Shown here: one piece after another, positions 647 through 28,984 of the stretch
How positions within the stretch are numbered: position 1 is the stretch's first letter
Layout of the letters: every line of letters starts with the position of its first letter
IMG/VR virus record: IMGVR_UViG_3300050821_016370
Coordinates: 1-34,780 of that record
Source: a virus
Length of the DNA stretch: 34,780 nucleotides
Direction: 5' to 3' (one strand)
Position numbers and translations under genes: made by a program
The notes under the pieces: generated by a model
What the model was told of the DNA's origin: nothing
Databases searched by the model: none
The model's input: the letters and a program-made list of their open reading frames with translations, nothing else

Positions 647-2659
647 TTGGTGCAGATGTGGAACAAGCTCAAAGTTGTTCATACGAATATCAAAGCAGCC
701 GTTGTGCGGTGGTTCCGTGCGCGCGAAGTTGTAAAGGTAATGCGCGTTGACCACGCCCAACAGTTAGCTGAATGTTATCGTACGAATCCCACCAACGCGG
801 TCCTGCTCAAAGCTCAGCAGAGTCGAGAAATTGCCGCTGTAAAATCCGGTCAGTTTGGAATTATAGACCGCCGGTCGTGGCAGTTTCCGTACATTCCTGA
901 AGCTCTGCATCGTTTGAATCAGCCCATCCTAAAAAATACGCCGTATAACTTGCGGCGTTTCTCCGAAACTCCGATTCCGCGCAAGGCTATAAATCTAATC
1001 AAGGACGGTTTGCTTTCGTTGCGTTGGAGGGTTTCGCCAGACGAGGGTCAGGACCAGGAAGATCCAGAGCTTTTGAAAGAGTGTGAAATTGCCACGTACT
1101 GTTTGAAGAATCCGAACAATCAGGATTCCTACAGAACGTTTATGGAAGCGGTCGCTGAAGATTTTATCATTGGTGGTTACGGAACTATCGAACCGCAGTT
1201 GACTCCGGACTACCGTCGTCCGTTCAAGATGTGGCCCATTGATGGTACAACGATTCGTATTTATGCCGACTGGACCGAGTCGGCTCCAGACCGTCCTCAT
1301 TACGCACAGTTGACGGGTCTGAAAGGCGAGCGGGGAATTATCGCCTTCATGGACGATGAAATAATCTACGTACGAGACAATGTCCGATCGTCCACGCCTT
1401 TTGGTCTGGGTAAACTTGAGGTTTGTTTCAATACCGTGAACGCGTTCTTGGGCGTTCAGGACATGGCGTCCAAAGCCGGCGCCGACCAGATCCACAAAAC
1501 TTGGTTGTGGTGGAAGGAGTCTGTTCCGCCGGCTCATCTAGACACGGTCCGTCGTCATATACGCGACGAAGTCGAAGGCCAGTCGAAGATGAGCTTGATG
1601 TCCAGTCTTCCAGTACCGTCGGTACTGGATGTTCAAGCGGTGACGCCGGAAGACTTGCTGCTCGAGTGGCAAGAGTTTTTGATTCGAATTATTGCCGCGG
1701 GCTTCGGGTTGTCGGCAATGGCGTTAGGGCTTGAGCGCGACGTAAATCGAAACACAGCTGAAGTGATGTCGGTTGCCGATTTCAACGCCACTGTTGTCCC
1801 AGTCGCCAGGCGATTTGAAGAAGCTATCACGCGATTTGTTCTGCATCGTTTCATGGGTTGGAAAAAGTTGCGGTTTGAGTATATGGGTCTGGAAGATCCA
1901 GATGCCATGACTCAGATGCAGATCATGACCATGAAGTACAGAGCCAATGCCACGACACCGGATGAAATACGAGAAGCGTTTGGAGACGCTCCGTTGCCGG
2001 GTGGTTGGGGTAAACTGACCATGGCTCAACAGCAGCTTTTGATTGCATCGGTTGCGGGAGGTAAGAGCGGCAGTATGGGTGGGATGGCTGTAGGTGGCAG
2101 CAGCGGGGGCATGGGTGGCGGAATGGGTGGCGGCGGTAGTATTAGTTCGGCTGCCAGCAAGATGCTGCCACCGTCTGATGACGACCAGCAGAACGAGCAA
2201 GATGCGCAGCAGCAATCAGGAATAAATCTGGACCAGAGTCCGTTCAGTGCCGATGAAGTAGCACAAATGTCTCCTGATGATATTATGTTGTATCAGCAAG
2301 CCGGTCTGTTGCCGGGTAACAACGGCGATTTGATGGACCAGATGAACCAGCAGTCTCCGGGTATTTTGGAGACCTTGTCTGATCAGTTGGTTGACTTCTT
2401 TACCAAGATGGACGAGCAGACGGAAGAAGACCAAACCAAGCCGGCAAAGATTACGAAGGCGGACCAAACCAATCAGGTGAAAATGTTCAGGGAACGCCAG
2501 CATAGAAATACGCAGGTTGAGCAGGACGCAAGAAGAATCGAGCTGCAAAGAAAGCAACTGCTGACGCGTAACCCGTTTCGAGGTACCACAACGATCAGCA
2601 ACCGTCGTCCTCTGAGCCCAAGGAGTGGTGGAGACGACGAAAGGTTCCGGGGCAGATAA
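647..2659 (+). CDS. Portal protein
   Basis: This 670-residue protein matches the portal family of long-tailed phages. It should form the dodecameric ring at one capsid vertex through which DNA is packaged and to which the tail attaches. Supporting features are the early helix containing IPRKAINLIKDGLLSLRW, the clip/stem-like centre (AVAEDFIIGGYGTIEPQL, then WPIDGTTIRIY), and the late segment with GFGLSAMALGLE and RNTAEVMSVADF, which is typical of portals. A Gly/Met-rich linker near residues 475-510 precedes a Gln- and charge-rich C-terminal extension of about 160 residues. The first codon is TTG 647; ATG 656 is a possible alternative. Neither has a clear ribosome binding site, so the start is uncertain. 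The next gene starts at the base after the stop codon. Confidence 0.9.
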   Translation: MVQMWNKLKVVHTNIKAAVVRWFRAREVVKVMRVDHAQQLAECYRTNPTNAVLLKAQQSREIAAVKSGQFGIIDRRSWQFPYIPEALHRLNQPILKNTPYNLRRFSETPIPRKAINLIKDGLLSLRWRVSPDEGQDQEDPELLKECEIATYCLKNPNNQDSYRTFMEAVAEDFIIGGYGTIEPQLTPDYRRPFKMWPIDGTTIRIYADWTESAPDRPHYAQLTGLKGERGIIAFMDDEIIYVRDNVRSSTPFGLGKLEVCFNTVNAFLGVQDMASKAGADQIHKTWLWWKESVPPAHLDTVRRHIRDEVEGQSKMSLMSSLPVPSVLDVQAVTPEDLLLEWQEFLIRIIAAGFGLSAMALGLERDVNRNTAEVMSVADFNATVVPVARRFEEAITRFVLHRFMGWKKLRFEYMGLEDPDAMTQMQIMTMKYRANATTPDEIREAFGDAPLPGGWGKLTMAQQQLLIASVAGGKSGSMGGMAVGGSSGGMGGGMGGGGSISSAASKMLPPSDDDQQNEQDAQQQSGINLDQSPFSADEVAQMSPDDIMLYQQAGLLPGNNGDLMDQMNQQSPGILETLSDQLVDFFTKMDEQTEEDQTKPAKITKADQTNQVKMFRERQHRNTQVEQDARRIELQRKQLLTRNPFRGTTTISNRRPLSPRSGGDDERFRGR

Positions 2660-4258
2660 ATGCCAAGAGTAGAAACATTACTGACGAGCACGCCGCAAGC
2701 GTTATCTTTTTCTGACATAACGTTTGACGCGTCCATCGACCGAGACCATCCTAACAAGCTGCCGTTCACCGGCACTCTGCTGTTGCTTGACGAGCCGTCG
2801 CAGCAGCCGCCCCATGGTGCAGAGGGTCATACGATTTTGGTTCCCAGAGAAGCCGCCGAGAAGGCTTTGCCTTCTGTCGTCGGAATGGGAATAAACTACA
2901 AGCCGAACTTGGAGGAACACGACCCAAAAAAGAAAATTGGTGTCATTTCTAAGGCGTGGATTGATGGGAATGCAGTAAAGGTCAAAGGAATTATCTGGCC
3001 GAAGGACTTTCCAGAAGCGGTTGCGAGGCTGCACGCCAACCGTGGGGATTTGGGAATGTCGATGGAGCTTGGTAACGTATACGTAGAAGATCAGGATGCC
3101 GATGTGTGGACGTTGGAGAAATTCCACTTTACAGGGGCAACGGTGTTGAAGAAAGAAAGCGCGGCGTACCAGCACACTTCACTGGCGGCGAGCGCTGTAC
3201 GTAAAGCAACCTTAGCGGCAGCAGCGGCTGCTATGGGAGCACTTAAAGGAGGAAAGGGACCTATGGCAAATGGTAAGCATAAAGCCAAGGACCAGAATCA
3301 GGTTCTCGCCGCCGCAATTGCCGCTGGTGTTGAAACAGCGTTCAACAAAGGCGTGATTCCGAAACTGACCAAGGCCTTGGAGGATGTAGGCAAGACCAAC
3401 GGCGCTATTTTGACGATGATGAAAGCCGCTGGAGATCAGAACAAGGTCATTCTTGCGACCTTGACCAAGAAGGAATCAGCTGAAGACGCCGATGATGGAA
3501 CTGTCGACCTCGACGTCGAAGCCATTCTTGCCGCCACTCACGGTGACGCAACCGATCCGACTGCTTCGAGTTCCAGCTCCAGTTCGAGCTCGAGAATGGC
3601 CGGCGGAGCGGACGCCAGTTCGTCTGCTTCGATGTCGAGCGCGGCCGCCAATTCGTCAACCGATGACGCAACAACAGACCAAACCGACCCAAGCGCTTCT
3701 GCATCAGACCAGCGCGCAGCGGCCGACCCGACGGCTGTTGACGGAAACGATCCAACCGTTCCTGACAACAGGATTGTCAACAAGAAAGCATCTGAACACG
3801 CCCACAAGCAGGCGAAGAGTGGTGCGGCGGGGCAGTTGACTCCGGGCGGCGGTAACGGTGGCGTTTCCGCGTCCAAGGACAAGAAGGGAGTAATACAAGT
3901 GGCTGCTGCGACCGCAAAGCTGGTGAACGACCTCCGTGCACAAAATGAGGAATTGCGCGGCGTGGTTGGCAAGCAAAACAATCGAATCCGGAAAATGGAA
4001 GCTCAGCTCGATCGGTTCTCCGAGCGAATTGAGCGCCGTTCGTTGTCTCCGGAAGTTTTGAACCTGCTTGAAAAGACCGGGCACGACCCCCGCGAACTGA
4101 TGGCCGGCAGCGCCAAGCTGTCTGTGGGACAGGTGGATGAGATGTTTGAGAAGTCTGGTCTGCATCTCGACCCGACGACTCGTATGGCCTTGAAAAATCA
4201 GCTGGTGCAAGCCGGCGTGATGGACCAAGGAATTGTCAACCGCCAGCGCTTGATGTAA
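2660..4258 (+). CDS. Capsid maturation protease fused to scaffold domain
   Basis: The product has 532 residues. The first ~180 resemble phage prohead serine proteases: His87 in the motif NLEEHDP and Ser134 in GDLGMSMEL are the likely catalytic pair, placed as in HK97-type (S78-like) enzymes. Residues ~200-532 look like scaffold: an Ala-rich helix, a long Ser/Asp/Thr-rich disordered region (with a run of nine serines) and a coiled coil near residues 415-455 (LVNDLRAQNEELRGVV and following). The protein should guide capsid assembly from inside the procapsid and then cleave itself and other head proteins. It starts directly after the portal stop (TAA then ATG). A second in-frame start at 3263 should give the scaffold alone. 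The family assignment comes from motif reading only. Confidence 0.8.
   Translation: MPRVETLLTSTPQALSFSDITFDASIDRDHPNKLPFTGTLLLLDEPSQQPPHGAEGHTILVPREAAEKALPSVVGMGINYKPNLEEHDPKKKIGVISKAWIDGNAVKVKGIIWPKDFPEAVARLHANRGDLGMSMELGNVYVEDQDADVWTLEKFHFTGATVLKKESAAYQHTSLAASAVRKATLAAAAAAMGALKGGKGPMANGKHKAKDQNQVLAAAIAAGVETAFNKGVIPKLTKALEDVGKTNGAILTMMKAAGDQNKVILATLTKKESAEDADDGTVDLDVEAILAATHGDATDPTASSSSSSSSSRMAGGADASSSASMSSAAANSSTDDATTDQTDPSASASDQRAAADPTAVDGNDPTVPDNRIVNKKASEHAHKQAKSGAAGQLTPGGGNGGVSASKDKKGVIQVAAATAKLVNDLRAQNEELRGVVGKQNNRIRKMEAQLDRFSERIERRSLSPEVLNLLEKTGHDPRELMAGSAKLSVGQVDEMFEKSGLHLDPTTRMALKNQLVQAGVMDQGIVNRQRLM
3245..3252 (+). promoter_or_regulatory. Strong internal Shine-Dalgarno for a nested scaffold start
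   Basis: AAAGGAGG lies inside the protease-scaffold gene, 10 nt ahead of the in-frame ATG 3263. It is one of the best SD matches in the window and better than that of the full-length gene. Confidence 0.75.
3263..4258 (+). CDS. Nested scaffold protein from an internal start
   Basis: ATG 3263 is in frame with the gene starting at 2660 and corresponds to its Met202 (MANGKHKAKDQNQ). With the AAAGGAGG just upstream it should yield a 331-residue protein containing only the scaffold half: the Ala-rich helix, the Ser/Asp-rich linker, the coiled coil and the C-terminal helices. This is the same arrangement as lambda C/Nu3, where the scaffold is made from an internal start of the protease gene so that many scaffold copies accompany few protease copies. 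The start and SD are seen directly; the product is inferred. Confidence 0.7.
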   Translation: MANGKHKAKDQNQVLAAAIAAGVETAFNKGVIPKLTKALEDVGKTNGAILTMMKAAGDQNKVILATLTKKESAEDADDGTVDLDVEAILAATHGDATDPTASSSSSSSSSRMAGGADASSSASMSSAAANSSTDDATTDQTDPSASASDQRAAADPTAVDGNDPTVPDNRIVNKKASEHAHKQAKSGAAGQLTPGGGNGGVSASKDKKGVIQVAAATAKLVNDLRAQNEELRGVVGKQNNRIRKMEAQLDRFSERIERRSLSPEVLNLLEKTGHDPRELMAGSAKLSVGQVDEMFEKSGLHLDPTTRMALKNQLVQAGVMDQGIVNRQRLM

Positions 4259-4297: not shown

Positions 4298-5293
4298 ATG
4301 GGAGCAAATTCAGTCAGATTCGCCCAACCAATCGAGATTTCTGCTGCGGCTGACTTCTTGGCGCCAGGCGCTATTGAAGTAAACCGCTATCAAGCAGAAA
4401 TTTTCGATTTGGTCCGGCGTCGTTTCGTCCTCGGACAGAGGATAAATCAGACGCCAGCAACCGGTCAGCCGTCGCGGTACTTCGAGCAGCTGTTGATTCC
4501 CATTGCTCAGACGACCGACCCCCGCGTAATCACCGTCACCGCCTCGCAGCCGAAGCGCGTGGAACGGCCCATCACGTTGAAAGCGATAGTTGCGCAAATC
4601 AACTATTCGATTTTCGACGTGGAAGTGAACCAGCAACAGGGACAGTTCGCCTATCTTGAAGCCAAGGACTTGACCGACGCAGTCGACTCGAGCCTGAAGC
4701 TTCATGACACGATGTTGTGGAACGGTTCAGATACCGACTTGGTCGTTCCAACGACCACGCAGTATTTTGGTATCTCCGGTCAAATCGTGGGCGCGCCGAC
4801 CGTCGGTGCCTTTGCCCCGACCTTCCCGATTACCGCCAGCGGTTCACTCGTTGATGGCCACAAGACAGCGGTAGCGCAGATGGTCAGCAGGCAGGACTTT
4901 GAAGTCCGGCCTTCGGGCATCTACATGTCACCGTTGTTTGCCGATCTGTTCGACCAAGAAGCAAAATCGGTGCAGTTGTATTTCAACGAAGTCGAAGTCA
5001 TTCCGGGTGTCATCGTCAAGGCGCTTCCGACGCAAGCCGGTCTGTTGCCGCTTATTCCTGACCCTGGTTTGCAGCCGACTCCGTTCCCGCCGGTTGCCGG
5101 GTCGACGCAGTATTCCAGCTTCGTTGTGATGGAGGAGTTCATCGAGTACCATTGGTTGACCTCTCCGTTGCCGCGTGTGTTCCAACTTGGCCTCGTCGGA
5201 AACCTTGCGGGGCAATTTGTGATTCTCAAATTCGGGGCCGTAGTCGCAAAGGGTCCAGGCTATGCCCATCGCGTGGTGTTGACAACCCGTTAG
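4298..5293 (+). CDS. Major capsid protein, HK97 fold likely
   Basis: This 331-residue protein follows the protease-scaffold gene, the standard place of the major capsid protein. It has a strong ribosome binding site, AGGAGG at 4281-4286, in keeping with heavy expression. The N-terminal region, the long extended segment (RVITVTASQPKRVERPITLK), the central helix (EAKDLTDAVDSSLKLHDTML) and the late beta-rich part (SGIYMSPLFADLFDQEAK, then the P-rich loop and PRVFQLGLVGNLAGQFVILK) fit an HK97-fold shell protein. There is no long N-terminal delta-like domain, so the separate scaffold probably supplies that role. A hairpin and the first endonuclease gene follow directly. Confidence 0.88.
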   Translation: MGANSVRFAQPIEISAAADFLAPGAIEVNRYQAEIFDLVRRRFVLGQRINQTPATGQPSRYFEQLLIPIAQTTDPRVITVTASQPKRVERPITLKAIVAQINYSIFDVEVNQQQGQFAYLEAKDLTDAVDSSLKLHDTMLWNGSDTDLVVPTTTQYFGISGQIVGAPTVGAFAPTFPITASGSLVDGHKTAVAQMVSRQDFEVRPSGIYMSPLFADLFDQEAKSVQLYFNEVEVIPGVIVKALPTQAGLLPLIPDPGLQPTPFPPVAGSTQYSSFVVMEEFIEYHWLTSPLPRVFQLGLVGNLAGQFVILKFGAVVAKGPGYAHRVVLTTR

Positions 5294-5304: not shown

Positions 5305-5359
5305 GCACCTTGCATTGGTCGGGGCATTTGTATAATATACAGATGCCCCGATGAGGTGC
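5305..5359 (+). promoter_or_regulatory. Leader hairpin burying the endonuclease ribosome binding site
   Basis: Inner stem: bases 5319-5333 pair with 5337-5351 (15 pairs, one T-G wobble, loop AAT). Outer stem: GCACCT (5305-5310) pairs with AGGTGC (5354-5359). The SD of the endonuclease gene, GAGGTG (5353-5358), is therefore inside the outer stem on any transcript that comes from upstream. A transcript starting inside the hairpin would lack the 5' arm and expose the SD. Confidence 0.7.
5310..5336 (+). promoter_or_regulatory. Possible promoter inside the hairpin
   Basis: TATAAT at 5331-5336 is a perfect -10 box in the apical part of the hairpin, preceded by TTTG. The best -35 is TTGCAT (5310-5315), with a short 15-bp spacer, so the -35 is weak. 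The predicted start near 5343 falls in the 3' arm of the stem. Confidence 0.5.
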
Positions 5360-5366
5360 CGTAAAC

Positions 5367-6059
5367 ATGGCTTGGACAAGAAAAAGTAGAAAAGCTGCAT
5401 CGAGACGAACAACAAAACAGAACAAGCGTCAGTGGTCCGACCAGAAGTTCAAAAAGAAGATGTGCAAGATTCGCAAAAAGCAAGCTACACGACCGGGTGC
5501 ATCAGAGGCTTACTCCGAGCGCATGACTATTGTTTGGAAAAATTCGAAGTACCGCGCCAGACAGACACGTTCTAGGAGTAGGTCGGTTGCTTATCAAAAC
5601 CGTGGCGAGAAAATTTCTAAAACGCTTTCCGGGCGCGTGGGTTGGTCGCGGGGTCTCACAAAAGAAACAGACATTCGAATGCAGAGTATTTCCGACGGGT
5701 TGCGTGGTCGCGTTCCGAACTATAAAAAGTACGGAACGTACTACGAAGGGAAGCACGGAAAGATTTGGATGCGGTCGCATTGGGAAGTTGCCTTTGCAGA
5801 GTGGTGTGACAAGAAAGGGTTCGACTGGTTGTACGAACCTATTCATTTCCGGGTAGGAAAAGGTCCGTGGGCTGGTGAGACCTACACTCCAGACTTTTTC
5901 TTGCCACAGCAGGACATGTGGGTTGAAGTAAAAGGACGGTTGAACGAGAGCAACGAGCAGAAGCTATTCTCTTTTCTGAAACAGCATAGTCACGTGCCGT
6001 GGATTATGTTGAAGAGGAGAGACTTGCAAATGCTTGGTGTTCTAGACAAGGCAGCCTAG
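5367..6059 (+). CDS. Free-standing homing endonuclease, PD-(D/E)XK type (copy 1)
   Basis: The product has 230 residues. The basic N-terminal ~115 residues contain NUMOD3-like DNA-binding segments (RGEKISKTLSGR; GWSRGLTKETD; ISDGLRGR). The C-terminal nuclease core reads MRSHWE (Glu140), WLYEPIHF, TYTPDFFLP (Asp176) and WVEVKG (Glu187, Lys189), the PD-(D/E)XK active-site pattern. It should cut a specific site in phage relatives lacking the gene and so spread by repair. It lies between the major capsid and connector genes, which are normally adjacent. The start ATG 5367 has the SD GAGGTG 8 nt upstream, locked in a hairpin. Its stop lies one base from the next start. Two paralogues lie at 11044 and 12972. 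Confidence 0.8.
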   Translation: MAWTRKSRKAASRRTTKQNKRQWSDQKFKKKMCKIRKKQATRPGASEAYSERMTIVWKNSKYRARQTRSRSRSVAYQNRGEKISKTLSGRVGWSRGLTKETDIRMQSISDGLRGRVPNYKKYGTYYEGKHGKIWMRSHWEVAFAEWCDKKGFDWLYEPIHFRVGKGPWAGETYTPDFFLPQQDMWVEVKGRLNESNEQKLFSFLKQHSHVPWIMLKRRDLQMLGVLDKAA

Positions 6060-6060
6060 T

Positions 6061-6885
6061 GTGGCTCAGCAAGATTTCCAGCCGAGATTCATTTCTCAGC
6101 AAGAGCTTGCCGCCTTTGGTCTGCCGGATGCGACAGTGCAGCCAGACATTATCACTCTCGTCGAACGAGCGTCGACGCTAATCGATGAGGCTTGCGGTAG
6201 ACAAGACGTAGACGGAAACGGTTCTCTCGTCTATACGACGTACACAGAACGGGTATTGCTGCCACAAGGGCGGAACATGACTAGGTTGTCATTCCGCCCT
6301 TTGGTCGCAGTACCACTATCGGTTCAGCAACAGTTAGTTGCTTCTGCCAATCAAATGGACGCAAGTGGTAATCCGATAGCGAATAATTTCTACACTGGGT
6401 TTCAGCCGAACACGCAGAATGCTCCGGTAGCGTCGGCCAATTTGACGCCGTTAATTTCCTGTAGTGGTCGGTACGGTTACGGAAGAAGGGGTCAACAGCA
6501 GGTTTATCCGGATTTGAACTATGCCGCAAACGTTTTACAAATTGCCAGTTTCTTCGGAGGTCCTCCGACGTTCACTCCAGTCGACATTACGCAAGTCGAC
6601 TACGATCCGAGAACAGGTGAGATTTGGGTTCCCGCTGGATTGTATCTCTCGCAGTACACAGAACTCGTTGTCGCGTACAACGTGGGATTTCACCCGTTGC
6701 ACATGCCGAGGGGAATCAAGCACGCTTGCGCCTCTCTGGTTCGAAACTTACTTGTCAGAGGAGGAGGAGCAACAGGGTTGACCGGTTTTGGGGCAGGAAA
6801 GATACGAGCGGACTTTACTCCCGCACTAATTGATGTAACGATAGAACAAATGCTTATGCCTTATTACACGGTTCGGGCGCTTTAG
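6061..6885 (+). CDS. Head-tail connector (adaptor) protein
   Basis: This 274-residue protein starts at GTG 6061 with a weak AAGG 9 nt upstream. The N-terminal part (QPDIITLVERASTLIDEACGR, YTERVLLPQ, LSFRPLVAVPLS) has the pattern of HK97 gp6-type adaptors: a helical bundle followed by the turn that introduces FRPV-like strands. The C-terminal helices (MPRGIKHACASLVRNLLVRGG) are also typical. It should form the ring below the portal. Between the two adaptor-like parts is a beta-rich insertion of about 90 residues (PNTQNAPVASANLTPLIS to QVDYDPRTGEIWVP), making it longer than the usual ~100-190 residues. Position after the capsid gene (and endonuclease) supports the call. Confidence 0.72.
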   Translation: MAQQDFQPRFISQQELAAFGLPDATVQPDIITLVERASTLIDEACGRQDVDGNGSLVYTTYTERVLLPQGRNMTRLSFRPLVAVPLSVQQQLVASANQMDASGNPIANNFYTGFQPNTQNAPVASANLTPLISCSGRYGYGRRGQQQVYPDLNYAANVLQIASFFGGPPTFTPVDITQVDYDPRTGEIWVPAGLYLSQYTELVVAYNVGFHPLHMPRGIKHACASLVRNLLVRGGGATGLTGFGAGKIRADFTPALIDVTIEQMLMPYYTVRAL

Positions 6886-9840: not shown

Positions 9841-10941
9841 ATGGCTCTATCTAAAGCGTTGGTGCAGACATTCCGCAAAAACACACTGCTCGTTGGAGCA
9901 GGGTGGCGCGCTTTCTTCTCTCCGTTCAACTTGGGGCAAAGCGCAGCGGCCAACAATACGTCCATCGGTCCAAAGATTTTGGACCTACAGAACGGTGGAC
10001 CTTTCAATACAAACGCACCGCCTTCCGGTTGGTTCGATCTGGGATGGATCAAGGATTTCAAGATCACTCCGCAGTCGAAAATCGGCCAGGTCCGTTCCGG
10101 CTATCGTGGAGCGGTTCGTGCACAGTACCGCGGTCAGGTTGGGGAGCAGTTCGAATTCGCTTTTCGTGAAGCGACGAGACTTGCTTTCAAAATCGCCGTG
10201 GGAACAACGCCGTTCAATTTGACTAAGACACCAGCGCCGTCAACAGCAGGTCCGCTGTCGGGTTCCGGTGCACAGGCTGTTCCTCTGGGAGCGTCTGGGT
10301 ACCAAGCTGCCGGAGCCGGTGCCACAGCCGGTTCGCCAACCGTATTCGTTCCTGCCGGTTCAGGAGCATTGTTCACCGCAGGTGCCTACATTGTGGTGGA
10401 CCAAGACTATACGAACCAGACGGGTATCGTCAATGACGCCGGTCAGCCAGTTTCCGCCGGTCAGGTAACTGACATTGACTTCATTCGGAAGACGTCCGAC
10501 TACGTAGCCCGCGTAACCAGCATTGCTGCCGGTGCTGTTGCGGGTCAGGACGGTTTGGTTTTGAACAACGTGTTTGTCGGCGGCGGTTCGTCCCAGCCAG
10601 GTGTTGCTGCCAATACGGGGCCGACGGCGGGAGCGAAAGTTCAGCAGGTAGTCGGTTGGGCCGTGAGAGAAGGTGCGACATTCATTACTGAATGGTCTGC
10701 ACTGTTTATCATGGACACAATCGACGCCGCTCAAATCGCCATTTATTATCCACACGTGTCGATTTCGCAGTTTAAGGACGTCGCTGCGTGGGCGATTGAG
10801 AACATCGGTACCACAGACGAAACTGGATACCAGTTGGATTGTGCGATGGAAGCTCTTGCCTTTGACGACCCAGAAGATGGTGAGACGGTCGTCGGATACA
10901 AAGCTTTTTATCCCAGGCCTTCACAAGACATACAAATATAA
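9841..10941 (+). CDS. Major tail (tube) protein
   Basis: This 366-residue protein lies between the probable tail terminator and the tail chaperones, the standard place of the tube protein. A strong SD (TGGAGGA) precedes ATG 9841, implying high expression. The N-terminal segment (PPSGWFDLGWIKDFKITPQS, KIGQVRSGYRGAVRAQYRG) is typical of siphophage tube proteins, which start with a beta strand, a 'DLG-x-x-x-F' turn and then a series of strands. An Ala/Gly/Pro-rich insert around residues 125-185 may form a surface domain. It should polymerise into stacked hexameric rings around the tape measure. The last codons overlap a terminator-like hairpin. Confidence 0.8.
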   Translation: MALSKALVQTFRKNTLLVGAGWRAFFSPFNLGQSAAANNTSIGPKILDLQNGGPFNTNAPPSGWFDLGWIKDFKITPQSKIGQVRSGYRGAVRAQYRGQVGEQFEFAFREATRLAFKIAVGTTPFNLTKTPAPSTAGPLSGSGAQAVPLGASGYQAAGAGATAGSPTVFVPAGSGALFTAGAYIVVDQDYTNQTGIVNDAGQPVSAGQVTDIDFIRKTSDYVARVTSIAAGAVAGQDGLVLNNVFVGGGSSQPGVAANTGPTAGAKVQQVVGWAVREGATFITEWSALFIMDTIDAAQIAIYYPHVSISQFKDVAAWAIENIGTTDETGYQLDCAMEALAFDDPEDGETVVGYKAFYPRPSQDIQI

Positions 10942-10972
10942 AGTTAATAAACATTTGTATGTCGTTTCGTTA
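10927..10972 (+). terminator. Terminator-like hairpin overlapping the end of the tail-tube gene
   Basis: GACATACAAAT (10927-10937) pairs perfectly with ATTTGTATGTC (10953-10963) around a 15-nt loop; GTTTCGTTATTT follows. The stop codon TAA (10939-10941) of the tube gene lies in the loop, so the 5' arm is made of the gene's last sense codons. The stem is AT-rich and the T tract imperfect, so termination would be partial. Confidence 0.55.
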
Positions 10973-10981
10973 TTTAAGAAA

Positions 10982-11035
10982 ACCACTAGAGAGATTGTAT
11001 TCTGGTTTGGTTTCGGGTATAATCTCTCTAGAGGT
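10982..11035 (+). promoter_or_regulatory. Leader hairpin burying the ribosome binding site of endonuclease 2
   Basis: CTAGAGAGATT (10986-10996) pairs perfectly with AATCTCTCTAG (11021-11031); after one A-A mismatch ACC (10982-10984) pairs with GGT (11033-11035). The SD of the gene, AGAGGT (11030-11035), lies in the 3' arm, so transcripts from the tail genes should hide it. This is the same design as at 5305-5359 with unrelated sequence. Confidence 0.7.
10995..11023 (+). promoter_or_regulatory. Sigma-70-type promoter inside the hairpin
   Basis: TTGTAT (10995-11000), a 17-bp spacer and TATAAT (11018-11023). The predicted start near 11030 would drop the 5' arm of the hairpin and leave a short leader with a free SD ahead of ATG 11044. 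Confidence 0.7.
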
Positions 11036-11043
11036 AATTTTGG

Positions 11044-11850
11044 ATGCCGGTTAAAGGCGGTACGCACACTACAAGTGTTCGTTTGCTGCTTTCAAAGCAG
11101 AAGTTAGGTAGTAAAAATCCTACGAAGCGTTTAGATGTTCGGCAAACGTTAAGTAGCGCAGCAAAAGACCGATGGAATAACACAAGTAAGAAGAAACGAT
11201 TAGCTGAGGGTCAGCGCTTAGTCTCAGCGGCAAAAAAGTTTTATGCTACTAGAGAGGGCAAGAAACAAAAGCTACAACAAAGTAAAAAGCTTAGAGGCGA
11301 GAACAATCCGGCGAAACGTTTGGAGGTTCGTGAGAAAATTAGTAGAGGAAGGCGGCGGGCTTGGCGTAACAAGGAGGTAAGGAAACGTACTATCGCCGCG
11401 ATGCAAAAGAGTTGGGACGAAAACTACGATGAGCGTGTAAAAGTAAATCGTAGCCCAAAAACAAGGGCAAAGATTTCCAAGACCATGAAAGGGCGTGACC
11501 CGGTAGGTCGCCCAAGAGGACCGAGAACAGTTTGGTACCGTGGAAACTGTGGTCGAATCGCCATGCGTTCTGAACCAGAGGTTGTGTACGCCAAGATTTT
11601 GGACAAGAAAGGAATCAAGTGGTTGTACGAACCAAACACTTTCTGCGTGGTAGTGGACGGCGTACTGAGAACGTGGACACCGGATTTTTATCTTTCACAA
11701 GAGCGGAGGTTCGTTGAGATAAAAGGATGGCTGCAGCCAGACCAAAAGAAAAAGATTTTGAAGGTGATTGAGCATTATAACGCCACTGATTTTGAATTGA
11801 AGGTTGTCAAAGACGTTCGGTATTTGAAACAAGAGTTAGTAGCAGCGTAG
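11044..11850 (+). CDS. Free-standing homing endonuclease, PD-(D/E)XK type (copy 2)
   Basis: The product has 268 residues. A very basic N-terminal half contains repeated NUMOD3-like elements (GSKNPTKRLDVRQTLS; GENNPAKRLEVREKIS; SPKTRAKISKTMKGRD), which should contact the DNA target along the helix. The C-terminal core matches copy 1: MRSEPE (Glu179), WLYEPNTF, TWTPDFYLS (Asp214) and FVEIKG (Glu225, Lys227). It is inserted between the major tail protein and the tail chaperone gene and has its own promoter inside a hairpin. The SD AGAGGT stands 8 nt before ATG. A terminator follows at 11880, so this gene forms its own expression unit inside the tail operon. Confidence 0.8.
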   Translation: MPVKGGTHTTSVRLLLSKQKLGSKNPTKRLDVRQTLSSAAKDRWNNTSKKKRLAEGQRLVSAAKKFYATREGKKQKLQQSKKLRGENNPAKRLEVREKISRGRRRAWRNKEVRKRTIAAMQKSWDENYDERVKVNRSPKTRAKISKTMKGRDPVGRPRGPRTVWYRGNCGRIAMRSEPEVVYAKILDKKGIKWLYEPNTFCVVVDGVLRTWTPDFYLSQERRFVEIKGWLQPDQKKKILKVIEHYNATDFELKVVKDVRYLKQELVAA

Positions 11851-11879: not shown

Positions 11880-11922
11880 GTGGGACAAGGTGTAGTTTAT
11901 GCCTTGTCCTACTTGTGTTTTC
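11880..11922 (+). terminator. Intrinsic terminator after endonuclease 2
   Basis: GTGGGACAAGG (11880-11890) pairs with CCTTGTCCTAC (11902-11912), 11 pairs with one G-T wobble and an 11-nt loop, followed by TTGTGTTTTC. The T tract is interrupted, so some readthrough into the tail chaperone gene is likely. Confidence 0.65.
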
Positions 11923-11948: not shown

Positions 11949-12611
11949 ATGTCGTCAACAGCATCAGTTGTAGTACCGCAGCAGGAGATGGGTCCGTCAC
12001 CGCTCCAAGAGTTGGTGAAGGACTATCCGGCGGACCTAGTACAAAAAGTTCACAACATTCTCGAAGCAGAAAATAAAAAACAGATGGATGATCTTTCCGT
12101 TGCCGTGCGGGAAGAGAATAAAAAGGCCATCGACGCGGCCATGGAAGAGATTCAGAAGAAGTTGAAGCCGCCGACTCAAGAAGAAATCCAAAAGCTCCTG
12201 AATCAAGAGTTGATGGAGTTTACGGTGACGGTTGGTGGAACAGAGAAGCGGAAGTTTACAATCGTCGAGTTGCCACAGGCGGTTGAGAAGAAGATGGTCC
12301 GGGTCATAAGAGACCGTTTGGTCCCCATCGCCACGGAAATTTCTGCATTGACCATGAATCTGCTGCAAGGAGACGCGGCAGACAAGCTGGTCAAGTTGAT
12401 GAGCACGTTTGAGCCGGCGTTGGGCGTAATGACCGACCTGTGCGTCATTGTTCTGAATCCGTACGGTGACGACAAAGAGGTAACGCTGGAGTGGGTCGAG
12501 AAGAATTTGACTTCCCAGCGGATTTTGTCGATCGTGGTAGCTCAGTTCGAGTGTAACCGGATGCGGGATTTTTTCTCGCAGCTCTCCCTCACCATAAACT
12601 CAATGACGTAA
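11949..12611 (+). CDS. Tail assembly chaperone, first protein (gpG-like)
   Basis: The product has 220 residues. ATG 11949 is chosen because GAGGAG lies 7 nt upstream; the frame is open further upstream but only through the terminator hairpin. It is mostly helical and charged, with a central beta-like stretch (MEFTVTVGGTEKRKFTIVEL). Position between tube protein and tape measure, and the -1 slippery site near its end, identify it as the G part of a lambda G/GT-type pair. These proteins coat the tape measure and recruit tube subunits during tail assembly. About 14 codons from the stop, T TTT TTC at 12569-12575 allows a shift into the following frame. Confidence 0.8.
   Translation: MSSTASVVVPQQEMGPSPLQELVKDYPADLVQKVHNILEAENKKQMDDLSVAVREENKKAIDAAMEEIQKKLKPPTQEEIQKLLNQELMEFTVTVGGTEKRKFTIVELPQAVEKKMVRVIRDRLVPIATEISALTMNLLQGDAADKLVKLMSTFEPALGVMTDLCVIVLNPYGDDKEVTLEWVEKNLTSQRILSIVVAQFECNRMRDFFSQLSLTINSMT
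12569..12575 (+). promoter_or_regulatory. Programmed -1 frameshift site of the tail chaperones
   Basis: The heptamer T TTT TTC fits X-XXY-YYZ in the zero frame (GAT TTT TTC). After a -1 shift the frame is open without a stop through 12632 to 12994. Shifted ribosomes would read FFLAALPHHKLNDVSKSE and continue into the next ORF. No strong downstream pseudoknot is evident by eye. Confidence 0.8.
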
Positions 12612-12631: not shown

Positions 12632-12994
12632 GTGGCTGGACGGGCTTCGCAAATTGAAGCATTCAAGATGTCAACGCGGGAGATTGAGGCCAAGTTCACA
12701 AAGTCGGAAATCGTATTCTTGTCTTGGTCTTCCCGTGAGACGTCGTTCAATTTGGAGAAGCGGTTTAAGCCTCTACCCGAGTCGACCGGGGGAGAGCGTG
12801 AGACGCGTAACTACGGTGGCGTTGAAGTGCCACGAGATTTGCCTGAACGTTTTTACGACCCAAAGACGGGAGAGATAGACTTGAGCAGGGTAACGGGAAG
12901 CGACGCCTATAAGTACTTTCAGAAAATAGGCATCCGTTTGCCAATTTTTCCTGTGGACGGTCCGAGAAAAGATGCCAAAGAAACCAAAAGCTGA
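12632..12994 (+). CDS. Tail assembly chaperone, frameshift extension (gpT-like)
   Basis: This ORF lies in the -1 frame relative to the upstream chaperone gene and is open from the slippery site, so its main product should be a 348-residue GT fusion. Taken alone from GTG 12632 it has 120 residues; GGAG at 12619-12622 could permit separate starts, but fusion is the usual way. The sequence (SQIEAFKMSTREIEAKFTKS, VPRDLPERFYDPKTGEIDLS) has no diagnostic motif; the T domain in other phages binds the tape measure or tube protein. Its last 23 nt overlap the third endonuclease gene, so its C-terminus may have been altered by that insertion. Confidence 0.75.
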   Translation: MAGRASQIEAFKMSTREIEAKFTKSEIVFLSWSSRETSFNLEKRFKPLPESTGGERETRNYGGVEVPRDLPERFYDPKTGEIDLSRVTGSDAYKYFQKIGIRLPIFPVDGPRKDAKETKS

Positions 12995-13664
12995 GCAAGA
13001 AAAGTTAACTAACGCCAGAGCTAGGTTTCTTGAAAGACCTATTGTATGCGCCTGTGGTTGCAAGGAAACCATAGTCGTAACTCGTTGGATGTGCTTTCCT
13101 TCGGGTTCTATTCCCAAGTACAAGCGTGGGCACCATTTTAGAGGCGCAAAGAGGCCCTATATGGTGAGGCGTAATAAAAGTAAGAAGCAACGTTTGGCTG
13201 TTGCTGCGTCGTGGCGGAATAAAAGAATACGTACCTCGAGAATAGATAAAACGAGTGAGTCATTGATGGGTCGTTCGAGGAGTTTAGAATCGAATAGAAA
13301 GCAGAGTCGTACGATGTCTTCTTTGTACGCAAAAGGAATTATAAAATGGAGTTGGAAAACCCACCAGTACTCGTATCGCTTAGTGAAAATGCGCTCTGAT
13401 TGGGAAGTAAAGTTCGCCACGTGGTGTGATTTGCACAAAATTAGTTGGCTGTACGAAAAGAAAAGATTTGTGTTGAAAAAGAATAGAACGTACACGCCAG
13501 ATTTTTACTTGCCTAGTTTGGATTTGTACGTTGAGGTGAAAGGGTTTTTGACTTCTTACTCTCTAAAAAAGTTGCAAGAATTTGGTAGGTTGTATCCAGA
13601 CATAACGTTGGTTTTGGCTACCGGAAACGTTTTGAAGGCCATCGGTGCTATGAGGGTCGCCTAA
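12972..13664 (+). CDS. Free-standing homing endonuclease, PD-(D/E)XK type (copy 3)
   Basis: The product has 230 residues. The C-terminal core is like copies 1 and 2: MRSDWE (Glu145), WLYEKKRF, TYTPDFYLP (Asp177) and YVEVKGF (Glu188, Lys190). The N-terminal part differs: CACGC (Cys26, 28, 30) and YKRGHH (His54, 55) look like a small metal-binding DNA-recognition element, followed by a basic linker. The three copies thus share a nuclease domain but carry different targeting parts. It starts inside the end of the chaperone ORF (23-nt overlap) with only a weak GAGAAAAG ahead, and stops 2 nt before the tape measure start. No hairpin-promoter like that of the other copies is seen. Confidence 0.78.
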   Translation: MPKKPKAEQEKLTNARARFLERPIVCACGCKETIVVTRWMCFPSGSIPKYKRGHHFRGAKRPYMVRRNKSKKQRLAVAASWRNKRIRTSRIDKTSESLMGRSRSLESNRKQSRTMSSLYAKGIIKWSWKTHQYSYRLVKMRSDWEVKFATWCDLHKISWLYEKKRFVLKKNRTYTPDFYLPSLDLYVEVKGFLTSYSLKKLQEFGRLYPDITLVLATGNVLKAIGAMRVA

Positions 13665-24912: not shown

Positions 24913-24941
24913 TTGACATGAAACTTGGGATTTCATATAAT
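24913..24941 (+). promoter_or_regulatory. Perfect consensus sigma-70 promoter
   Basis: TTGACA (24913-24918), 17-bp spacer, TATAAT (24936-24941): 12 of 12 consensus bases at optimal spacing. The spacer contains ATGAAA and TTTCAT (24917-24922 and 24930-24935) as an inverted repeat, a possible operator. Expected start near 24948. Confidence 0.9.
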
Positions 24942-25507: not shown

Positions 25508-25544
25508 TATAATAACTGTGAAGCGGCCACGGGAAGAAGCCGCT
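25508..25544 (+). promoter_or_regulatory. -10 element and 5' hairpin before the helicase gene
   Basis: TATAAT (25508-25513), preceded by TTTG as at 5331, lies 7 nt after the upstream stop; no good -35 is visible. AGCGGC (25522-25527) pairs with GCCGCT (25539-25544), so an mRNA starting near 25520 would begin with a stem-loop. The SD AAAAGGAAG follows. Confidence 0.45.
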
Positions 25545-27795: not shown

Positions 27796-27812
27796 AGTTT
27801 TCCAAGTCGAAA

Positions 27813-28810
27813 GTGAGTGCCGTAGCAGATGAGAGACCCGAGTTGCGAGAGTTGTGCCGGCAAGATTGTGCGATTCGACAAAGTAGTGAGTACCGCAACA
27901 GACGAAAGATTCGTGCCTTGGGTGTCGTACCGTACTCAATGAAAGGTTCGTGGCTGCGGAGTGTACCGTGATTCTTGAAAGATTTGGCTAGTTAGCGCGT
28001 ACCGTGGAAATGGAAAGATTCGCCCTAGAAAGTGAGTGCCGTGACAGCTGAGAAATTCATTACTTGGGTGTCGTACCGTAATAAATGAAAGGTTCGAACA
28101 ATTTGTGGGTACCGGAGTAGGAGGAAAGATTCGTTGAAGACAAGTGTACCGAAAGCGAGGAAAGATTCGGCGCCAAAGAGAGTACCGAGGTTGCTGAAAG
28201 ATTCAGCACCGGGGAGTGTACCAAGTCTAGTGAAAGATTCGAATTGAACGCGCGTACCGTGGCAGATGAAAGATTTGTATGCAATGTGGGTACCGAGAAG
28301 TGTGAAAGAACCGTCGGCCGTGAGTGTATCGAGTTGTCGGAGTGATTCGGTAGTGGGGAGTTGTTCCGCAAAATGGAGAAAGATTCGTACCCACAGAGTG
28401 TTCCGACACCAGGCGAAAGATTCATGCAGATGGGGAGTATCGTCACAGGCGAAAGATTCGACACCCCTGAGAGTTCCACATGCGGCGAAAGATTCGCTAC
28501 TGAAGTGAGTACCGGATGTAGTGAAAGATTTGCTACCTACGATAGTACCGAGAGTCAGGAAAGATTTGTGAAATGAGAGTTGTACCGACGGGGTTGGAAA
28601 GAGTCGCAACGAGCAGTGAGTGCCACAGTTCCAGAACGAACCGCCGGTCTGGAGAGTATCGATCCACCGTAGTGAGTCGTCGAAGTAGGTGGGTATCGTC
28701 AATCAAGAATGAATCGTTGCATCTGTGGGTTCCGGAAAGGTTGGAATGATTCGTGAGAGTACGCGTTGTGTCGTGGGAATACGAAAGAATCGTAATTGGT
28801 AAGAGTGCCG
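27813..28810 (+). repeat. Array of two alternating 10-bp boxes, one box every 18-19 bp
   Basis: The whole gap between the genes ending at 27795 and starting at 28823 is filled by about 54 boxes that alternate between A (consensus GAAAGATTCG) and B (consensus GWGWGTACCG, W = A/T). Examples of A: 27904-27913, 28013-28022, 28124-28133, 28160-28169, 28232-28241, 28451-28460, 28487-28496. Examples of B: 27886-27895, 27959-27968, 28105-28114, 28178-28187, 28505-28514. Ends of successive boxes are 18 nt apart, sometimes 19, with one irregular step near 28760; the pair period averages about 36.6 bp. The 8-9 nt between boxes are not conserved. The last B box (28801-28810) touches the SD of the next gene. 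No gene, terminator or promoter is evident. It may be an origin, a partition site or another multi-site protein target. Confidence 0.9.
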
Positions 28811-28822
28811 AGGAATACGAAA

Positions 28823-28984
28823 ATGGCTATTCTGAGAAAGCAGATTCAAGAAGCAACGCAAGCAGTAGAGACGCTTGCTACCAGTCAGGTCGGTTCACCC
28901 AGCCAAAAGAAAGAAGCTTTGAGTGAATTGCAAGACCTGATTGAGAACTACATGGAAGAGCTTGCCAAGCAAGCAGGAGACTGA
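28823..28984 (+). CDS. Small helical protein after the array
   Basis: The product has 53 residues from ATG 28823, chosen because GAGGA (28810-28814) lies 8 nt upstream; a TTG further up would read into the array. It is almost entirely charged helix (MAILRKQIQEATQAVETL, KKEALSELQDLIENYMEEL), probably a coiled coil. No family is recognised. It is the first gene of the replication operon. Confidence 0.6.
   Translation: MAILRKQIQEATQAVETLATSQVGSPSQKKEALSELQDLIENYMEELAKQAGD

Follow-up and report, generated by a model that had tools for sequence, protein, structure and literature searches.

In phage T4, the intron endonucleases I-TevI, I-TevII and I-TevIII share a way of staying silent on long transcripts: a structure in the long RNA sequesters the Shine-Dalgarno sequence (SD), and the RNA made from an adjacent upstream promoter, a late promoter in the case of I-TevI, is too short to form that structure (PMC2988022). 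Free-standing mobile endonucleases, namely T4 segB and mobE of Aeromonas phage Aeh1, are described with an SD-sequestering hairpin and a promoter in PMC2988022 and PMC3014915. For seg43 of Aeromonas phage 25, PMC2988022 reports a stable hairpin just 5' of the SD, with the SD outside it. Ordinary phage genes can also be controlled in this way: the long early transcripts of T4 e, soc and 49 are silenced, and in the case of e, the SD is released by late promoters lying in the structure's 5' strand (PMC3014915). In IS200, a stem-loop at the transposase start represses translation and shields the element from outside transcription (PMC2515195). IS200 is a transposon and additionally has a terminator stem-loop, so its likeness to the present case lies in the self-protection of a mobile element by a start-site stem-loop. 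IS10 fold-back inhibition likewise guards a mobile element from outside transcription through a stem-loop at the transposase start.

The leader described here precedes a free-standing endonuclease gene, endonuclease 2, and appears to follow the same principle with different parts. As far as the sources go, the T4 intron endonucleases use late or middle promoters, a phage-modified polymerase and an intron, whereas here the -10 box is a host-type TATAAT and the gene stands free after structural genes. segB and mobE belong to T4-type phages and encode GIY-YIG and HNH enzymes, in contrast to the T7 endonuclease I-like nuclease of an unclassified tailed phage seen here, and e, soc and 49 are ordinary phage genes with the late promoter TATAAATA, unlike endonuclease 2. 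The seg43 arrangement also differs from that of endonuclease 2; it resembles one relative's endonuclease leader (L250) and partly another's (L012/L006), both discussed below. The principle is therefore already known from T4 and is ordinary as such; what is new is that the phage is not of the T4 type and the -10 box is of the host type, which makes this a useful independent case. Our literature search, beyond which most subscription journals lie, returned no description of a host-promoter form before phage endonucleases.

The window, i.e., the whole stretch of 34,780 nucleotides that was analysed, belongs to a tailed phage, since genes other than the endonucleases match portal, head-tail adaptor and tail proteins (helicase, primase and exonuclease matches are also present). 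It contains three related endonuclease genes on the + strand, endonuclease 1 (5367-6059, 230 aa), endonuclease 2 (11044-11850, 268 aa) and endonuclease 3 (12972-13664, 230 aa), which share a T7 endonuclease I-like domain and whose proteins are 26-30% identical. Their family profile matches PDB entries 1m0d, 1fzr, 3cae and 2pfj. In endonuclease 2, the nuclease domain lies toward the C-terminal side and matches phrog_945 (7.7e-11) and PF05367 (4.6e-7, 30 bits, cut-off 29.1), making it the only endonuclease in the window over the PF05367 cut-off. Annotated phages yielded no homologue of endonuclease 2 in DNA and protein searches, nor did a single-protein viral scan find one. The nuclease domain, together with the empty sites in relatives, leads us to class these genes as putative T7 endonuclease I-like mobile (homing) endonucleases.

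The genes directly 5' of endonucleases 1 and 2, ORF 4298-5293 and ORF 9841-10941, have no convincing family match, and the predicted structure models of their products have mean pLDDT values of 27.7 and 37.4, respectively. Guessing from synteny, we take them to be the major capsid and major tail protein genes. Endonuclease 3 starts within its upstream ORF and follows what is presumably a frameshifted chaperone pair. At position 12565 stands GGGATTTTTT, kept in three relatives (L005, L006, L007), which we take to be the likely frameshift site of the tail assembly chaperone genes. Elsewhere in the window, positions 27800-28830 hold a degenerate array with a step of 36-37 nt (identity 0.43 at lag 36), in which motifs resembling GAAAGATTCG and GTACCG take turns every 18 nt or so; no reading frame survives steps of 37, so the array seems to be a feature of the DNA or RNA.

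The endonuclease 2 leader contains a strong hairpin, identified by RNA folding and inverted-repeat search. Its 5' arm, ACCACTAGAGAGATTGTA (10982-10999, + strand), includes ACC-A-CTAGAGAGATTGTA with the anti-SD ACC, and its 3' arm, TATAATCTCTCTAGAGGT (11018-11035), includes TATAATCTCTCTAG-A-GGT. The arms are 18 nt each and 89% complementary, with a single A.A mismatch in the stem (10985/11032), and they are the first-listed of six inverted pairs in the 34,780-base window (at least 13 nt, within 80 nt); the second-listed pair, 5319-5351, lies upstream of endonuclease 1. The RNA of positions 10970-11060 folds at -35 kcal/mol, where shuffles average -17.4 (sd 2.64, z -6.66), and 0 of 200 shuffles fold equally well. 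The SD, AGAGGT (11030-11035), lies within the 3' arm, 8 nt 5' of the ATG at 11044. The preliminary description had claimed such a pairing with the SD inside it, and this is borne out, with coordinates that agree with the sequence. It had also claimed the promoter TTGTAT-17-TATAAT, which is present: the -10 box (11018-11023) matches 6/6 and lies within the 3' arm, and the candidate -35 box (10995-11000), 17 nt 5' of it, is weak, matching TTGACA at 3/6. A promoter scan of the window did not list this promoter because it demands 4/6 in each hexamer.

The predicted transcription start is at about 11030, 7 nt past the -10 box, which would give a 14-nt 5' UTR and an RNA, AGAGGUAAUUUUGGAUG, that begins with the SD. 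In computed folds, the cost of opening the SD-to-AUG region is 11.7 kcal/mol on the read-through RNA and 3.2 kcal/mol on the promoter-initiated RNA, the latter computed for starts moved -3 to +1 nt around 11030. One feature of T4-type locks is present, as judged from computed folds only: the SD is sequestered in a stable structure on the read-through RNA. For another, a promoter whose RNA lacks the 5' arm, the -10 box would be suitably placed; the candidate -35 box matches at 3/6 and the start is a prediction.

The stem has no U-run on its 3' side, where AATTTTGG stands instead, and so differs from an intrinsic terminator. The T4 late promoter TATAAATA is absent from the leader, the box there being TATAATCT; nothing therefore points to late timing, and a constant low supply of the endonuclease is as likely. 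No Rfam cis-regulatory family matches the window over its gathering score, and a lax Rfam search of 10900-11100 gave sub-threshold matches only (E 0.71-1.9). The window has 11 TATAAT sites on both strands (6.26 expected), six of them on the + strand, of which those at 5331 and 11018 fall inside the two first-listed hairpins. Besides the TATAAT of a consensus promoter at 24913-24941, a second intergenic one, at 25508-25513, lies in TTTGTATAATA, a string also present in the endonuclease 1 leader. No Sigma70_r2 match was found in the window record, and one of 11 related records, which are fragmentary, has one above the cut-off.

We read the endonuclease 2 leader as a read-through lock with a built-in promoter key, and put the probability of this reading at roughly 0.6. 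Endonuclease 2 directly follows ORF 9841-10941 on the same strand, ahead of a terminator-like hairpin, so structural-operon transcripts would run through it. On such read-through RNA, the 5' arm would pair with the SD and block ribosomes from starting. The promoter, with its consensus -10 box in the 3' arm, would start RNA at about 11030, past the 5' arm, and this RNA, beginning at the SD, would be translatable. In consequence, the plentiful structural mRNA would yield little endonuclease, and the gene's own promoter would provide a small supply besides. We also count for this reading that the phage has at least one clear host-type promoter elsewhere, TTGACA-17-TATAAT at 24913-24941.

The architecture of this leader is non-random. 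We shuffled the leader 10,000 times with dinucleotides preserved and the SD and start fixed (the remaining 89 nt being shuffled). Any TATAAT appeared in 792 of the 10,000 shuffles, and a TATAAT with an SD-to-AUG access gain equal to or bigger than that observed appeared in two. TATAAT alone is therefore common in so AT-rich a leader (32% GC vs 50% for the window), and the rare part is its combination with the access gain. When only the sequence upstream of +1 was shuffled, 22 of 1,000 shuffles matched the observed opening cost.

Comparison with relatives shows that the leader arrived with the endonuclease. Scans with ORF 9841 yielded L005-L007 and then L011-L018, the first three of which are the same contigs. 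All seven relatives that span the site have neither the endonuclease nor a TATAAT there (221 nt read, the stretch between the genes being short), which implies that the leader came with the insert; L018 stops before the site and is outside this count. Aligning these seven places the inserted cassette, leader plus endonuclease 2, at 10942-11850 (+ strand, boundaries approximate), past the stop codon of ORF 9841-10941 and ahead of the terminator-like hairpin that belongs to this gene (11880-11912, + strand, from the terminator scan). The closest relative (L005/L011, neighbour protein 88% identical) has a similar hairpin immediately 3' of the gene that precedes the insertion, so the cassette entered between gene and hairpin. 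L005 lacks endonucleases 1, 2 and 3 at their respective sites, and no homologue of endonuclease 2 was found at its own site among the relatives. At 2565-3256, L005 has a broken-looking endonuclease of the same family, in two overlapping ORFs and 8 nt past the upstream gene, with no leader hairpin seen.

Endonuclease 1 is inserted between ORF 4298-5293 and ORF 6061-6885, whose counterparts in L005 are 14 nt apart. The preliminary description had seen the same design upstream of both genes, and for endonuclease 1 this holds in part. Its leader has a long, strong hairpin (5319-5351, + strand, z -6.28) with TATAAT near the apex (5331-5336), and GCACC (5305-5309) pairs with the SD region GAGGTGC (5353-5359). 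The gain in SD access, on the other hand, is small at 1.2 kcal/mol, a value that 191 of 10,000 leader shuffles match or exceed. Folding a longer upstream stretch gives costs of 9.5 and 6.5 kcal/mol, the first of which 302 of 1,000 upstream shuffles reach.

A family scan with ORF 4298 gave 36 loci, near-duplicates included, of which 35 were examined (L278 ends within the gene). Five of the 35 have a same-family endonuclease at the endonuclease 1 site: L244 (the same contig as L006/L012), L247, L249 (L023), L250 and L259 (L022). With the window, this makes six alleles, three of which have TATAAT and one of those three a strong lock. The strong one is L022, with TTGAAA-16-TATAAT, arms that enclose the SD-AUG spacer and TATAAT between them; its opening cost falls from about 20.1-20.4 to 3.8 kcal/mol, which 0 of 10,000 shuffles equal. 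L022 and endonuclease 1 share a -10 core, TTTGTATAATATACA, at 15 of 15 nt (0 of 1,000 shuffles), and the L022 arms, GAGTGGTC and GACCACTC, are unrelated to those of endonuclease 1. It looks as if a promoter core had been retained while the arms were rebuilt, and two sequences are thin evidence for this. In L012/L006, TATAAT lies at the foot of a 16-bp stem, on the 5' side, and an outer stem of 5 bp reaches the SD, with a gain of 1.6 kcal/mol (282 of 10,000 shuffles). L250 has a hairpin (z -5.13) with the SD free and TATAAA in place of TATAAT, and L249/L023 has a truncated N-terminus and no unusual leader structure (z -0.57). L247 has no TATAAT within the 90 nt that precede its start; a sequence resembling a group I intron (RF00028, 27.1 bits, E 4.5e-5, under the gathering score of 50) lies at 2534-2714, after the gene in the capsid position and before the endonuclease.

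These alleles bear on an alternative that we consider unlikely, in which only the hairpin matters: the stem silences translation, or opens by some other signal, and TATAAT is there by chance in an AT-rich leader. The shuffle frequency of TATAAT, the low GC content and the poor -35 box are all compatible with this, and the endonuclease family has strong hairpins without TATAAT in L090 and L091, where the SD is in the stem, and in L250, where it is free. Against it, the -10 box recurs in the hairpins of L022 and endonuclease 1 with the 15-nt core conserved, and in L012/L006 it sits at the foot of the hairpin.

A rather less probable alternative is that the stem serves a highly expressed upstream gene, as a hairpin for mRNA 3' ends, termination or processing, and that SD pairing is a by-product. 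Endonuclease-free relatives often have, judged by eye, a GC-rich hairpin after the same genes (L015, L017 and L018 at site 1, and most of L011-L017 after the ORF 9841 homologue), and the stems of L012/L006 and endonuclease 1 resemble these. However, the terminator-like hairpin persists 3' of endonuclease 2, and the 10982-11035 stem has no U-run, includes the SD and was not listed by the terminator scan (its loop is 18 nt, and the scan takes loops of 3-8 only).

It is very unlikely that the palindrome around the -10 box is instead a DNA operator that the endonuclease itself binds, despite the precedent of I-TevI, which represses its own late promoter through a mimic of its homing site (PMC2988022). 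The endonuclease 2 leader does match the empty site of L011 locally over 19 columns, but not significantly (160 of 1,000 shuffles do as well), and the endonuclease 1 leader has none (423 of 1,000). A chance inverted repeat, which would fit one leader in one window with no homologous leader at the same site, can practically be dismissed, given that no shuffle of 200 folds as well, two of 10,000 match the combination and the pair is listed first of six in 34.8 kb.

Several observations nevertheless count against the lock reading. Ribosomes may bind poorly to an SD that stands at the extreme 5' end of an RNA, the -35 box matches at 3/6, and the gains in endonuclease 1 and L012/L006 are small. The endonuclease 3 leader has neither hairpin nor TATAAT, hence no lock, unlike the two genes behind the presumed capsid and tail genes, and L247, L249 and L250 also lack the combination. 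In the wider family, profile scans covered 14 genomic homologues and the best 80 of 515 viral ones, and 98 starts were used, from 95 database loci and the three window genes (L105 gave no start). Dropping duplicates, leaders without an SD of at least 4 nt and leaders with less than 100 nt upstream left 51 family and 216 control leaders, of 310 in all. The strict architecture with exact TATAAT occurs in three of the 51 (viral part being the best 80 of 515) and in one of the 216; among the matches listed, it is endonucleases 1 and 2 and L095 that have it. The preliminary description had staked its case on homologous leaders, and 48 of these 51, with the same viral sampling, fail the strict test, so that we reject family-wide conservation of the design. 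The strict test is conservative, as its SD-only threshold also missed L022 and L006.

Other nuclease leaders were also read. L090 and L091 have SD-covering hairpins without TATAAT, and L090 has TTGACA-17-TCTAAT, not counted as a lock because its -10 box has no A at position 2. The related records contain 13 HNH matches, of which nine leaders were read (four loci gave no ORF), and none of the nine has a clear lock: L235 shows a weak TTCCTTTATAAT/AAAAGGAAA pairing and L228, the HNH gene of L006, has TATAAT without a hairpin. No GIY-YIG gene was found in the 11 related records.

A collection-wide scan for ACCTCC-TATAAT-GGAGGT-N6-ATG, with ATTATA replacing TATAAT as the control, found 60 design and 59 control stretches, so the raw count shows no enrichment and the scan is only partial proof of it. 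Many matches are divergent gene pairs in which ACCTCC is the SD of the second gene. Removing these leaves 41 design and 26 control matches, and the gain is at least 10 kcal/mol in 23 of the 41 vs 9 of the 26. By Pfam, mobile nucleases make up 7 of 39 scanned proteins in the non-divergent design set (GIY-YIG 2, HNH 4, TnpB 1; two of the 41 proteins are shorter than 20 aa, and the near-duplicate pairs L137/L146 and L139/L154 are included). The control set, divergent and non-divergent together, has 1 of 45, which omits L153, whose stem reads both ways, and the near-duplicates L199, L213, L221, L223 and L224; it becomes 2 of 46 if L153 is counted. The divergent design proteins have 0 of 17 (L161, already in the control scan, is omitted).

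Among the individual cases, the GIY-YIG genes L137 and L146 have long locks of 20 bp upstream, and the HNH genes with the architecture are L157, L139, L154 and L143. L153, which matches both patterns, is TnpB-like (OrfB_IS605, below the Pfam cut-off) and has, at 783-828, TTGACA-17-TATAAT with the -10 box in a 20-bp SD-sequestering stem; besides it, the control pattern has one GIY-YIG gene (L183). The L147 product (382 aa) matches the MTES_1575 nuclease family weakly (E 0.0017, below cut-off) and is possibly of the REase fold. Genes for holin, dUTPase, DnaE, DNA ligase and kinase also have the architecture in front of them. Of all locks computed in the pattern scan, that of a phage holin gene (L131, about 6095-6149, minus strand) is the largest, at 26.4 vs 2.7 kcal/mol. 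As most family leaders fail the strict test and holin, dUTPase and ligase genes have the design, it is not confined to mobile nucleases, nor do all of them have it.

The preliminary description had gone further, proposing that two leaders with no shared sequence converged on one architecture that silences mobile endonucleases. Convergence of the leader design is partly supported. In its favour, the architecture is real and non-random, is insert-borne before endonuclease 2 and recurs in L022; against it, non-nuclease genes have the architecture also and endonuclease 3 does not. Leaders 1 and 2 may share some sequence: they have a local match, CATTTGTAT (33 of 1,000 shuffles), at non-equivalent places. 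Since the endonuclease proteins are homologous (26-30% identity), convergence is indistinguishable from diverged descent. A broader view is that a T4-style lock using host sigma is a general module of phage mobile nucleases, invented repeatedly, with the order anti-SD, -10, SD, in which arms are swapped while the -10 core persists, and which precedes timing-sensitive genes too, e.g., holin genes. We think this view less likely than not.

Mobile endonuclease genes are often found inserted next to phage genes that are essential and strongly expressed. If the lock reading is true, the endonuclease would go unread on its neighbour's transcripts and keep a private supply, which would make insertion cheaper and help the gene to persist. 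The host-promoter form would also make the T4 mechanism available to phages that have no late sigma factor, and its signature (anti-SD, -10, SD) could be used for finding locks in genomes and for testing whether arms are rebuilt around a fixed promoter.
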